This document shows positions 19,363-24,177 of a stretch of DNA of 64,000 nucleotides, one piece after another. Origin of the DNA: Phycisphaerae bacterium (GTDB lineage Bacteria; Planctomycetota; Phycisphaerae; Sedimentisphaerales; Anaerobacaceae). The notes below the pieces were generated by a model that searched no databases, was not told the DNA's origin, and saw only the letters and a list, made by a program, of their open reading frames with translations. A program made the position numbers and the translations under genes. Within the stretch, counting starts at the first letter, position 1; each line of letters starts with the position of its first letter. The stretch lies in NCBI GenBank assembly GCA_030615025.1, contig JAUXAB010000002.1, positions 1 to 64,000 of the forward strand, written 5' to 3'.

Positions 19363-19532
19363 AATATTTACCGCTGAGAACGCTCCCCGCTTCCACGGGG
19401 ACAGGCGAGAGCGCGGAGAGTTCAATAGTAATTAGCCACGAATTGGCACGAATTTGTTTAGCCACAAAAAAGCGCAAAAAAGTTAGACAGGATTAACACG
19501 CAATTTCAAATCCAGAATTTCTCGCAATTTAC
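19363..19532. other. Spacer with hairpin, no gene seen
   Basis: The gap after the TPR gene holds a hairpin (CCCCG CTTCCA CGGGG, about 19386-19401) and AT-rich text, and no open frame worth calling. The promoter and leader of the next gene begin at 19533. Confidence 0.5.
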
Positions 19533-19561
19533 TTGACAGTGACGTGCAAAAGCTGTACAAT
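19533..19561 (+). promoter_or_regulatory. Strong sigma-70-type promoter for the Hcp-like gene
   Basis: TTGACA (19533-19538), exactly 17 bp, then TACAAT (19556-19561). The -35 is perfect and the -10 matches 5 of 6 positions, the best promoter in the window. It implies a transcript start near 19568 and an untranslated leader of about 160 nt. Confidence 0.75.
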
Positions 19562-19688
19562 TACATTACTTTGAGTGGTTTTGCCAGAGGTGTAAGTGAT
19601 GGGAAAATGCCGTTCTATTACCCCGATTCGGCCAGATTACCAGCAGGTATCGGTGCGCACAGTGTGCACCGTGTGAAATATTAACCGT

Positions 19689-19714
19689 TCCCTGCGTACG
19701 CAGGGACAATTTTT
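19689..19714 (+). terminator. Attenuator-like hairpin in the leader of the Hcp-like gene
   Basis: A perfect palindrome, TCCCTGC GTAC GCAGGGA (19689-19706), makes a 7-bp stem with a 4-nt loop. CAA and five T residues follow to 19714, ending just before the GAAAGG ribosome-binding site and the ATG at 19727. The position after a strong promoter and before the gene suits attenuation, or simply a stabilising hairpin near the ribosome-binding site. Confidence 0.45.
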
Positions 19715-19726
19715 GAAAGGAAAAAA

Positions 19727-20389
19727 ATGGAAACGAGAAAGGCAAAAACAAAAGTAGTGGCGGCTGTATTGGCTTTGGCTGCTCTGTGCGTGTTTTCGCT
19801 GTTCGCTGTAGGCGGGAATTTGGAGCCGAATGCACCGCCCGGGCCGACAATGCACACTCTGGATGAGATTTATAACGAGGTCACGTCAGCAGGGTCCGAG
19901 AACGGGGATTCGATCCCACATCACTCGGAGGTTGAAGGCTCAGGGGCAATACATATCTCGCTTACAGGCGCGACCCAGGGCGCTATAGATGGAAGCTGCA
20001 CGGCAGCGGGTAAGGAGGGCACAAGCGTAGTTGTAAGTTTCGAACACGATGTGCATATACCTCTTGACACAGACACCGGTCAGCCGACGGGTGTACGGGT
20101 GCATCAGCCCCTCAGTATCGTCAAGCTTATGGATAAGGCAAGTCCCAAGCTCTATCAGGCGCTGGTCACAGGGGAGCGGTTAACTGTGGAGATCCAGTGG
20201 TACCGTATAGACCCTACTGGTGGTGAGGAACATTATTTCACAACCAAGCTGGAAGATGCTATCATTGTGGCAATCAAGCCTTCTTTGCTGCATATGGAAG
20301 ATGTTTCTTTTACATACAGAAAGATTATATGGACCTGGGAGCCAGACGGAATCACAGCTCAGGATGATTGGTCGACTCATCTCCCCTGA
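19727..20389 (+). CDS. Exported Hcp-like (type VI secretion tube fold) protein
   Basis: A 220-residue protein with a Sec-type leader (METRKAKTK, then a hydrophobic stretch to about residue 30), a Pro-rich linker (NLEPNAPPGPTM) and an Hcp domain from about 72 to 215. The match to the Hcp1 family is clear in order and wording: VVVSFEHDVHIPLDTDTGQP, GVRVHQPLSIVKLMDKASP, YQALVTGERL, IQWYRIDP, EEHYFTTKLEDA, VSFTYRKIIWTW and a closing DDW. Normal Hcp has no signal peptide and leaves the cell through the type VI machine. No tss or vgrG gene is in the window. The leader is almost identical to that of the next gene, a beta-helix protein. A secreted ring or tube is a fair inference. Confidence 0.8.
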   Translation: METRKAKTKVVAAVLALAALCVFSLFAVGGNLEPNAPPGPTMHTLDEIYNEVTSAGSENGDSIPHHSEVEGSGAIHISLTGATQGAIDGSCTAAGKEGTSVVVSFEHDVHIPLDTDTGQPTGVRVHQPLSIVKLMDKASPKLYQALVTGERLTVEIQWYRIDPTGGEEHYFTTKLEDAIIVAIKPSLLHMEDVSFTYRKIIWTWEPDGITAQDDWSTHLP

Positions 20390-20482: not shown

Positions 20483-21571
20483 ATGGAAACGAGAAAGGCA
20501 AAAACAAAAGTAGTGGCGGCTGTATTGGCTTTAGCTGCTCTGTGCGTGTTTTCGCTGTTCGCTGTAGGCGGGAACCTGGAGCCGAATGCACCGCCGGGGC
20601 CGACAATGAAAACGCTGGATGAGGTTGAGCCGAGAATTCCCATTTCGTCAGTGCCCTATACCATCTCGGCTTCTGGGTCCTACTACCTGACCGGTGACTT
20701 GACACTTTCGGCCACGGACACTCACGGAGTTACGATCAACGTGGACAATGTTACCATTGACCTGAAGGGCTTTGCCCTCAATGGGCCGGGCAAAACCTTT
20801 GGATCCACTGGAAGTGGGATCAGAGGCATCGGCCGAAAACAGATTACCATTCGCAACGGAATCATCCGCCAGTTTCGGGGCGAAGGACTCAGCTTCAATA
20901 ACGGGACCGGTCTGCTGGTGGAAAACCTGATGGTGGAAAACTGCGGTAGCGGCGGCATCCATGGCTATCTCCATGTGACCGTTCGAAACTCGCAGTGCTA
21001 CCAGAATGACGGCTACGGTATCCTCGCAAATGGTCATCTATTAGCTGAGAATAATATCTGTGCCGCAAACAGCTCCATAGGCATAGGTGCAAGCGGATCT
21101 GGCTCCGTCATCAAGGGCTGTATCGCTTATGACAATGATAACAGCGGGATTTCTGTCGGTCCCGGTTCAACCGTTACTCAATGCTCGGCTTATTCCAATG
21201 GTACCCGTGGCATTTACGGTTCCAGCGGCTCTACAATTACCGCCTGTTCAGCATATCTTAACTCTGGAATCGGTATCGCTGTAGGAGATGCCTGCACAGT
21301 CAGCAACAATACCAGCTCCAACAACTCTACCGTTGGCATTCAGGGGCAAAACCGAAATTACATTCGCAATAACAGTGTCAACAATTCGCCAACGGGCATC
21401 AAGGTTAACAGCACGGATAATCTGATAGAGTTTAATTTGGTGACGAATTGCACTGAAGGGTTGAATCTTGTTGGTAACAACAATCTTTATATCAACAATC
21501 GATTGTCCAATCCTACAAATTTTGTAAATCAAGCTGGTGACACCACCGACGGCAGCAATATCGAATTTTAA
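20483..21571 (+). CDS. Exported right-handed beta-helix protein
   Basis: A 362-residue exported protein. Residues 1-42 are identical to those of the Hcp-like protein upstream. TLDEVEPRIPIS and GSYYLTGDL follow, a usual opening of planctomycete parallel-beta-helix proteins. The helix itself covers about 70-345, rich in N, G and S with short rungs such as ITIRNGIIRQF, VENLMVENCGSGG and ENNICAANSSIG, as in NosD/pectate-lyase-like folds. No catalytic residues can be fixed. GGAGG lies 7 bp before the ATG. The GENVGW-repeat gene follows 21 bp downstream, so these are probably cotranscribed. Role: carbohydrate binding or a surface structure. Confidence 0.82.
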   Translation: METRKAKTKVVAAVLALAALCVFSLFAVGGNLEPNAPPGPTMKTLDEVEPRIPISSVPYTISASGSYYLTGDLTLSATDTHGVTINVDNVTIDLKGFALNGPGKTFGSTGSGIRGIGRKQITIRNGIIRQFRGEGLSFNNGTGLLVENLMVENCGSGGIHGYLHVTVRNSQCYQNDGYGILANGHLLAENNICAANSSIGIGASGSGSVIKGCIAYDNDNSGISVGPGSTVTQCSAYSNGTRGIYGSSGSTITACSAYLNSGIGIAVGDACTVSNNTSSNNSTVGIQGQNRNYIRNNSVNNSPTGIKVNSTDNLIEFNLVTNCTEGLNLVGNNNLYINNRLSNPTNFVNQAGDTTDGSNIEF

Positions 21572-21592: not shown

Positions 21593-22237
21593 ATGAAAGT
21601 TGAACGGAAATATACGACAGTGGCACTGGTTCTTTTCAGTTTGTTCGTGTTTTGTATGGCGGCCCGAGCCGAGAATATTGACCCCAATGAGGACGGCAGC
21701 CAGTATGCCTATGGCGAGAATGTCGGCTGGCTGAATTTTGAGCCGAGTCAGGGACCGGGCGTAACCGTAAGCGATGATAAATTGACCGGCTACGTCTGGG
21801 CTGAGAATATCGGCTGGATAAATCTTGACCCAAAGTTCGGCGGTGTTACAAACGATGGAACAGGGCTTCTATCAGGTTATGGCTGGGGTGAGAACGTCGG
21901 CTGGATAAACTTCAACCCCAAAGTACCTGGAGACCCAGAACACTATGGCGTTACCATCAACCACGAGGGCAATTTCAATGGCTGGGCCTGGGGAGAGAAT
22001 ATCGGCTGGATACATTTGGCGTCCGGTGCTCCTGTTGCTTATAAGGTTCAAACGTCCTGGATTACAAGCTGTGTGGTTGATTTTGACGATTTGGGAAGGT
22101 TTTGCGACCTCTGGCTGCAAACCGGCCCCGGATTAAAAGCTGACTTTGACGACAGCAAGGATGTCGACTTTAAGGATTACTGCACTATCGCCGAGCTTTG
22201 GCTCACACTATGCCCAGCCGGCTGGCCGTTAAAATGA
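21593..22237 (+). CDS. Exported GENVGW-repeat protein with dockerin-like end
   Basis: A 214-residue protein with a signal peptide ending near ARA (residue 26). Four repeats centre on the words AYGENVGWLNF, VWAENIGWINL, GWGENVGWINF and AWGENIGWIHL, spaced 27-34 residues apart, each likely a pair of beta strands. From about 160 there are two dockerin-like calcium loops: VDFDDLGRFCDLWL and ADFDDSKDVDFKDYCTIAELWL. The dockerin end suggests docking to a cohesin or cell-wall partner; no cohesin was recognised in the window. GGAG lies before the ATG. It is likely the third gene of the 19727 transcription unit. Confidence 0.8.
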   Translation: MKVERKYTTVALVLFSLFVFCMAARAENIDPNEDGSQYAYGENVGWLNFEPSQGPGVTVSDDKLTGYVWAENIGWINLDPKFGGVTNDGTGLLSGYGWGENVGWINFNPKVPGDPEHYGVTINHEGNFNGWAWGENIGWIHLASGAPVAYKVQTSWITSCVVDFDDLGRFCDLWLQTGPGLKADFDDSKDVDFKDYCTIAELWLTLCPAGWPLK

Positions 22238-22692: not shown

Positions 22693-24177
22693 ATGGCTGA
22701 ACAAATAAACAAAATGCGGTTAAGCGGGGGATATACAAATGTACGGCTGGCGATGTTTGTGTGTGCCGTGGTGCTATCGTTTGTCGGCAGCGCTGTGTTT
22801 GCTAGCGCGGCGCAGCCTGCGAAGAGTGTCAAGCCGATCCAACTGCATCCGGAGAACGGCCACTATTTTCTGTGGCGCGGCAAGCCGACGGTTCTGATAA
22901 CCTCGGGCGAGCATTACGGGGTAGTGCTCAATCGGGCCTTCAACTACAGAAGATACCTCATGACACTCACCTCACATGGGTTTAACCTGACGCGGACATT
23001 CAGCGGGGCGTACTGCGAGCCGGCTGGGGCGTTCAAAATTGCGAACAATACGTTGGCCCCGGCGAAAGGTCAACTCATCTGTCCGTGGGCGCGTAGCAAT
23101 AAGCGCGGCTACGCCAACGGCGGCAATAAATTTGACCTGAAAAAGTGGGACCCCGCGTACTTCGAACGCCTCCGCAGCTTTGTTGCCGAAGCAGGCAAAC
23201 GCGACGTTGTTGTCGAACTGGTACTGTTTTGCCCCTTCTACGAAGACGCTATGTGGAAACTTAGCCCGATGAACGCTGCCAACAACGTTAACGGTATCGG
23301 CAAAATGAAACGCACCGAAGTCTATACGCTCCAAGATCGCAAACTATTGGCTGTGCAGGACGCAATGGTACGCAAAATCGTCGAGGAGCTAAAGGGCTTC
23401 GACAACGTCTATTATGAAATCTGCAATGAGCCATACTTCGGCGGCGTGACGCTCGAGTGGCAGGCCCACATCGCCGAGACAATCGTTAAGGCCGAAGCAA
23501 ACTTCAAAGCAAAGCACCTGATCGCCCAGAATATCGCTAACAAGTCCAAGAAAGTGACCAAGCCGAATCCTCATGTGTCGATTTTCAACTTCCATTACGC
23601 CAAGCCACCCACAGCTGTTACTGAGAACTATGGCTTGAACAAGGTCATCGGCGACGATGAGACGGGCTTTGCCGGCAGTGAGCCCAAAGCATACCGGCTC
23701 GAAGCGTGGGATTTCATTATCGCCGGCGGTGCAGTGTATAATAACCTTGATTACTCTTTCACAGTCGGTCACGAAGACGGCACGGCGAGGATCAATGCCC
23801 CGGGCGGCGGCGGGCCGGTGTTTCGAAAGCAGTTGGAGATTCTCAAGGATTTCATCAACAGCTTCGACTTCATCCGGATGAAGCCGGACAATTCAATCAT
23901 AAAAGCCGGAGTACCCGATAAAGCAACCGCCCGCGCGCTGGTCCAGGCAGGCCGTGGCTACGCCATTTACATTAACGGCGGCAACAAGGCAGAGTTGGTG
24001 CTGGGACTGGCCAGGGGCGCGTATAATACAGAATGGGTGAACACGAAAACAGGAAAGGTTGAAAAAAAGGAGTCGTTTCGGCACGCCGGCGGCAATAAGA
24101 CGCTGCATTCGCCCAAGTACACCGATGATATCGCTCTGCGGATTAAGCGCATGTCGAGGAGCAGGATAATACGGTGA
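22693..24177 (+). CDS. Secreted clan-A glycoside hydrolase, GH5-like
   Basis: A 494-residue exported TIM-barrel enzyme. After a signal peptide (FVCAVVLSFVGSAVFASAA) comes a strand-rich opening with HYFLWRGKPTVLITSGEHYG, typical of GH5-type and DUF4038-type glycosidases. NVYYEICNEPYFGG near residue 240 supplies the acid/base Glu in the NEP motif, and VIGDDETGFAGSEP near 320 is a candidate for the nucleophile Glu. A C-terminal beta domain follows (YAIYINGGNKAELVLGL, WVNTKTGKVEKKE). Start at 22693, with AGGAG 10 bp upstream. Substrate is not predictable; plant or algal polysaccharide is likely by context. Confidence 0.78.
   Translation: MAEQINKMRLSGGYTNVRLAMFVCAVVLSFVGSAVFASAAQPAKSVKPIQLHPENGHYFLWRGKPTVLITSGEHYGVVLNRAFNYRRYLMTLTSHGFNLTRTFSGAYCEPAGAFKIANNTLAPAKGQLICPWARSNKRGYANGGNKFDLKKWDPAYFERLRSFVAEAGKRDVVVELVLFCPFYEDAMWKLSPMNAANNVNGIGKMKRTEVYTLQDRKLLAVQDAMVRKIVEELKGFDNVYYEICNEPYFGGVTLEWQAHIAETIVKAEANFKAKHLIAQNIANKSKKVTKPNPHVSIFNFHYAKPPTAVTENYGLNKVIGDDETGFAGSEPKAYRLEAWDFIIAGGAVYNNLDYSFTVGHEDGTARINAPGGGGPVFRKQLEILKDFINSFDFIRMKPDNSIIKAGVPDKATARALVQAGRGYAIYINGGNKAELVLGLARGAYNTEWVNTKTGKVEKKESFRHAGGNKTLHSPKYTDDIALRIKRMSRSRIIR

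Follow-up and report, generated by a model that had tools for sequence, protein, structure and literature searches.

The 64,000-nucleotide (nt) stretch analysed here, called the window throughout, comprises positions 1-64,000 of the forward strand of contig JAUXAB010000002.1 of the Phycisphaerae bacterium GCA_030615025.1 (Sedimentisphaerales; Anaerobacaceae). At 19727-20389 on the forward strand it encodes a 220-amino acid (aa) protein of the Hcp family with a predicted Sec-type leader, preceded by a conserved promoter and 5' untranslated region (5'UTR) element and followed by genes for a beta-helix protein and a GENVGW-repeat protein, in that order. In annotation, Hcp counts as an indicator of type VI secretion and as a subunit of the injected tube; the tube protein of a type VI secretion system (T6SS) has no Sec signal peptide and remains cytoplasmic until it is injected. 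The parts of the window Hcp are:

19727..19816, + strand: predicted Sec-type signal peptide, residues 1-30 (hydrophobic segment, predicted helix 2-27, purifying selection on codons 1-41)
19817..19942, + strand: conserved N-terminal tag NLEPNAPPGPTMHTLDE and disordered linker, residues 31-72 (tag common to other exported cargo; low predicted local distance difference test, pLDDT)
19949..20377, + strand: Hcp (TssD-fold) domain, residues 75-217 (profile matches, AlphaFold2 (AF2) model, structural alignments)

Residues 81-204 match Pfam PF05638 (E 3e-35, 121.7 bits against a curated cut-off of 23.5) and residues 75-217 match NCBIfam TIGR03344 (Hcp1/TssD; E 3e-43, 147.6 bits against a cut-off of 58.9). 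The nearest solved relative by sequence is Hcp3 of P. aeruginosa (PDB 3HE1, E 5e-37), and their alignment covers FEHDVHIPLDTDTGQPTG / FNHEVIIPRDPQSGQPTG, LEDAIIV, FTYRKI, and DDW, the same words by which an initial annotation, made from the DNA letters alone, had placed residues 72-215 in the Hcp1 family. An AF2 model built from 28 relatives has pLDDT mostly above 90 in the Hcp core, and its residues 72-217 match Hcp structures at Z 20.7-21.8 (VIA-align), with Z 21.8, root-mean-square deviation (rmsd) 2.0, and 145 aligned residues against EAEC Hcp1 (4HKH), and Z 20.9, rmsd 1.4, and 135 aligned residues against 3HE1. The model fits the subunits of Hcp hexamers at Z of about 21, in the comparison that the annotation had proposed. 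The domain is full length and has the fold of T6SS Hcp/TssD proteins (3HE1, 4HKH, and V. cholerae Hcp 5MXN), is 46-53% identical to 3HE1 in structural alignments, and shares with them the conserved interface-helix motif KxxDKASPxL. Tail-tube proteins of phages, pyocins, and extracellular contractile injection systems (eCIS) have a related fold, with phage and eCIS tubes ranking after the Hcps (Z 8-10), whereas the window sequence is that of Hcp proper. The protein is an Hcp by sequence family but departs from a T6SS tube protein in two features, its Sec leader and the lack of a machine.

The AF2 model places a single helix at residues 2-27, after which confidence is low as far as about residue 70. 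The leaders of the adjacent Hcp (19727-19849) and beta-helix (20483-20605) genes differ at four of 123 nt, all synonymous, with no amino acid change in codons 1-41, from which it follows that the leader undergoes translation, is under selection at the protein level, and arose by a recent copying event; its identity in the two genes points to recent duplication or gene conversion. Moreover, a hydrophobic N-terminus is present in 46/46 exported (non-T6SS) Hcps tested and in 0/11 T6SS Hcps, the 15-residue mean hydropathy having a minimum of 1.73 in the former and a maximum of 0.65 in the latter. The Sec-type signal claimed initially is therefore supported by a leader that is coding, shared with an exported beta-helix protein, and hydrophobic in every exported relative tested. 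An in-frame ATG at codon 42, inside the conserved PTM motif, would allow translation to begin past the leader (Met42) and give a cytosolic protein, but this is scarcely credible: the synonymous-only divergence of codons 1-41 speaks against such a start, these codons are shared with a second exported protein, and an AGGA-type ribosome-binding site (RBS) precedes the ATG at 19727, with none at codon 42.

The tag that follows the leader is found as well on exported cargo of other kinds, among them beta-helix and Lcl_C, and in many relatives plain signal-peptidase sites stand ahead of it, for example AIA↓GDLNP and SSFA↓GD (arrow, cleavage). Based on the A↓G[DNS]L pattern of related proteins, we infer cleavage before the NLEP tag, near residue 30, and export of the Hcp protein to the periplasm or outside. 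The single long helix at residues 2-27 and -3/-1 residues (A/V, G) that are merely fair for signal peptidase I would also suit an uncleaved leader, with the protein spanning the inner membrane once and its Hcp domain forming a membrane-tethered ring in the periplasm; this is unlikely given the clear sites of the same-tag relatives and the separate, conventional signal peptide of the GENVGW companion.

The genome bin (3.9 Mb, 132 contigs, 79% complete) encodes two Hcps, both of the exported type. The initial annotation had reported no tss, vgrG, clpV, or PAAR gene nearby; for TssC, TssK, and VgrG the lack of matches extends to the whole bin, ClpV and PAAR lying outside the search. A hidden T6SS was rejected on this genome-wide result, and the full tss cluster elsewhere that could have claimed the protein as its Hcp was looked for and not found, within the 79% completeness. 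The phage-type sheath PF17482 likewise had no match in the bin, on which ground an eCIS or phage origin was rejected. Unlike T6SS Hcp, then, the window protein has a Sec leader, an N-terminal tag, and a linker and belongs to a secreted-protein module, and genes for sheath, baseplate, and VgrG were not found.

A survey of 148 genomes of the order Sedimentisphaerales found Hcp in 44, TssC in 11, and TssK in 11 (10 shared, plus G138). T6SS core genes occur in 12 of these genomes, each with an adjoining leaderless Hcp of ~160 aa (that of G138 partly masked by N), and leader-bearing Hcps without T6SS core occur in 32, among which one weak Hcp fragment (G024) was not read; one genome, G129, holds both types. 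An exported Hcp without core genes is found in G026 (single contig, 99% complete) as well as in G038, G052, and G060 (99%). In the same genus, G080 (94% complete) has an exported Hcp and no TssC or TssK, with VgrG matched solely by sub-threshold fragments in a 2095-aa ORF, and G065 has a T6SS, its Hcp being leaderless and beside TssC. It is very improbable that the window protein is an ordinary T6SS Hcp with an odd leader and that its cluster is in the fifth of the genome missing from the assembly. The incompleteness of the bin and the T6SS of G065 speak for this explanation; against it are the leaderless Hcp of that very system, the nearly complete G080 and G026, and the Sec leader itself, which would take Hcp out of the cytoplasm, the site of tube building. 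The central claim of the initial annotation, export of an Hcp-fold protein in a genome that lacks a T6SS, is supported by the bin-wide lack of core genes, the 32 similar genomes, and a coding leader shared with exported proteins, and its statement that stand-alone Hcp-like proteins occur in planctomycetes holds for this order. About three-quarters of the order's Hcp-bearing genomes have a leader and no T6SS, so automatic labels such as "T6SS effector Hcp" mislead there. Two Hcps elsewhere in the phylum (L139, L140) also have signal-like N-termini, indicating that exported Hcps occur outside this order too.

In a tree of 80 Hcp domains there are at least 9-10 changes between the exported and leaderless states, six of them forced by well-supported branches, and a single exported clade is rejected (approximately unbiased test, p 0.0002). 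The window copy falls in a separate, Hcp3-like lineage, and the second Hcp of the same genome (L037) nests in a supported group among T6SS Hcps and is 82% identical to one of them (L080). Given this polyphyly and this identity, leaders were probably captured repeatedly by T6SS-type Hcps, which is the simplest reading of the tree; some leader losses may also have occurred.

Downstream of the Hcp gene the window encodes two further members of the secreted module:

20483..21571, + strand: right-handed beta-helix protein, the second cargo, with a near-identical leader (PF13229, E 3e-25; 41-codon leader identical in protein)
21593..22237, + strand: GENVGW-repeat companion with its own signal peptide and a dockerin-like CPxGWPLK tail (such a gene adjoins 16/47 exported Hcp ORFs of the order)

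The initial annotation had listed a beta helix, a GENVGW-repeat dockerin protein, and a glycosidase downstream; the first stands, the dockerin resemblance of the second is by motif only, PF00404 (Dockerin_1) not matching its C-terminus, and the glycosidase (22693-24177) has just a sub-threshold Cellulase match. The companion matches no Pfam family, and we claim no fold for it because its AF2 model is poor (pLDDT 62) and its structural matches weak (best Z 6.5, to beta-barrels and avidin-like proteins). A match of the beta-helix protein to the Hcp profile, weak, outside the leader, and probably compositional, was discarded.

The same arrangement recurs elsewhere in the genome and beyond it. A GENVGW gene likewise follows the second Hcp (contig C63, L001/L037), and at a third locus (C95, L096), which has no Hcp, a beta-helix gene with a leader precedes a GENVGW gene and one more leader-bearing protein. 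In the order sample, which holds 45 full-length GENVGW genes, one lies within 2.5 kb of 16 of the 47 exported Hcp ORFs, where ~0.05 would be expected, and of none of the 13 T6SS Hcps; GENVGW genes without an Hcp are mostly preceded by a PTMKTLDE-tagged beta-helix protein. The tagged neighbor is of the Lcl_C (DUF1566) type in genomes of anammox bacteria, Chloroflexi, Patescibacteria, and Gemmatimonadota, so the pairing of tag and GENVGW is far wider than planctomycetes, and one Phycisphaerales genome (L213) has a tagged Hcp adjoining GENVGW. Tagged leaders, often doubled, were seen fused to Lcl_C-type domains beside GENVGW-repeat proteins at L180, L190, L192, L199, L200, L212, and L222. These Lcl_C and beta-helix proteins share leader, tag, and GENVGW neighbor with the window Hcp and differ in carrying an unrelated cargo domain. 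Hcp is one of several interchangeable cargoes (beta-helix, Lcl_C, or Hcp) of a recurrent secreted module.

The exported Hcps of other Sedimentisphaerales families are tagless and end in a single dockerin-like segment, e.g. SDLTGDGIVNLLDLAILAQEWL; both tag and dockerin tail are absent from about nine exported Hcps. This half-dockerin and the GENVGW tail recall dockerin-bearing planctomycete proteins and cellulosome-type scaffolds. Unlike in those systems, the Hcp tails are single 22-residue halves that fall below the Dockerin_1 cut-off of 22.9 bits (E 2.6e-4, 21.6 bits; E 1e-3, 19.6 bits), and the dockerin-like tails have no known partner, as no cohesin was found in the window genome; cohesin was found in only 3 of 31 genomes searched.

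Douzi et al. (PMC3925092) report packing, within the Hcp ring, between the helix of one subunit and strands b8/b9 of the next, and positions 138-148, 190-196, and 199-204 were set from that work as the interface. Conservation of exported minus cytosolic Hcps is -0.008 at the interface and -0.079 at the remaining positions (p 0.014), which favors retained rings. A monomeric beta-barrel that serves as a binding or display domain is a rather unlikely account, although the alternatives in the same slot, beta-helix and Lcl_C adhesion-type domains, are not ring formers and in the window's own clade the interface shows no special conservation compared with cytosolic Hcps: across all exported Hcps the interface keeps its T6SS-type conservation as other positions relax, and within the interface-helix motif K133, D136, P140, and L142 show high conservation.

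We consider it moderately likely that the window protein is a T6SS-independent, Sec-exported Hcp that forms extracellular or periplasmic rings as a structural or adhesive surface element, one cargo of a regulon. Signal peptidase would remove ~30 residues, leaving a mature tag NLEPxxPPGPTMxTLDE, a flexible linker, and the Hcp barrel; beyond the cytoplasmic membrane the barrels would assemble as the hexameric rings typical of Hcp and, displayed jointly with the GENVGW companion, could have a structural or adhesive function at the cell surface or in the matrix. In other families the C-terminal half-dockerin may replace the companion. Several points weigh against this reading. Hexamer formation, extracellular location, and signal cleavage are predictions, the interface conservation is modest and in the window's own clade alone non-significant (p 0.36), a fair share of exported Hcps have neither GENVGW neighbor nor dockerin tail, cohesin was not found in the window genome, and at 79% completeness the absence of a T6SS there is not absolute, though near relatives agree. 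As to the rings or tubes outside the cytoplasm that the initial annotation had proposed, the ring receives indirect support from the fold and the conserved interface and tube stacking receives none; its suggestion of a scaffold rather than an injection tube fits an Hcp that is cargo of a secreted module with neither sheath nor spike.

The regulon is suggested by the region upstream of the Hcp gene (19528-19726), which consists of a promoter and a ~130-nt conserved 5'UTR:

19533..19561, + strand: sigma-70-type promoter, TTGACA - 17 nt - TACAAT (11/12 consensus match; most other copies have TTGAC/TATAAT at the aligned upstream position)
19552..19715, + strand: conserved promoter/5'UTR element, model R1 (13 own-genome copies, mostly before secreted-protein genes)
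19651..19671, + strand: conserved hairpin or palindrome CGGTGCGCACAGTGTGCACCG inside the element (best-conserved part of a 23-sequence alignment)

The promoter consensus scan by itself was not above the shuffle background. A covariance model of the element, built from five loci and applied at E < 0.001, found the 13 copies in the window genome and another 16 across four congeneric genomes; those inspected lie mostly immediately 5' of the start codons of exported-protein genes, for example of TFTYQGRLxDANxPADGxYDF proteins. Matches occur in just 6 of 40 genomes of the family, indicating that either the element or the model is narrow. The hairpin CGGTGCGCACAGTGTGCACCG has two-sided changes at three of seven pairs and could equally be an RNA hairpin or a palindromic operator. 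Neither the window region nor eight related loci match Rfam, and a known riboswitch upstream of the Hcp gene was rejected on this ground. The element is a candidate cis-regulatory element of a surface-protein regulon. The Hcp gene would be transcribed from this promoter/5'UTR element common to other secreted-protein genes, which suggests an interchangeable cargo of that regulon and not an injection tube.

The presence of leader-bearing Hcps in surface-protein gene sets of syringe-less genomes makes it appear that a part of the syringe was reused extracellularly several times, and recruitment of T6SS Hcps to a surface role may have happened more than once. The fuller proposal is tentative, and we rate it slightly below even: that T6SS tube proteins were repeatedly recruited, by capture of Sec leaders, into a ring-based extracellular system of the planctomycete surface or matrix, where Hcp rings, beta-helices, and lectin-like domains can replace one another as cargo, are paired with GENVGW proteins, and are under a common 5'UTR element. 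In a limited search of the open-access literature, judged by titles and abstracts, a Sec-exported Hcp was undescribed, by which priority is not established, and a similarly limited search found no paper combining Hcp with dockerin. If the protein does assemble into rings extracellularly, planctomycete surfaces would have a self-assembling structural component that descends from an injection machine, and the domestication of contractile-tail proteins would gain a concrete test case. The leader tag, the companion, and the 5'UTR element offer handles on an unstudied planctomycete surface-protein system.

Further features were observed around copies of the element, whose loci include L245-L262, L096:4765-4922, and L055. 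Element-headed secreted genes are often followed (L246, L247, L250, L252, L253, L255) by a ~140-aa companion of the form YDLTWSTIDGGGGxSSGGPYTLTGTIGQPDAAWSSGGDYELLGGFWPGG...CPxGWPLK, whose dockerin-like end resembles the tail of the GENVGW protein. The homologue of the window glycosidase in G080 (L260) has the element directly upstream, and no copy was detected before the window glycosidase. An additional terminator-like palindrome at 19689-19706, TCCCTGCGTACGCAGGGA, separates the element from the RBS of the Hcp gene, and at the matching position L246 and L247 have a longer palindromic insert (TTCCCTGCTGGAGTTTATCC...GGCAGGGAC); these inserts are perhaps a small mobile repeat.
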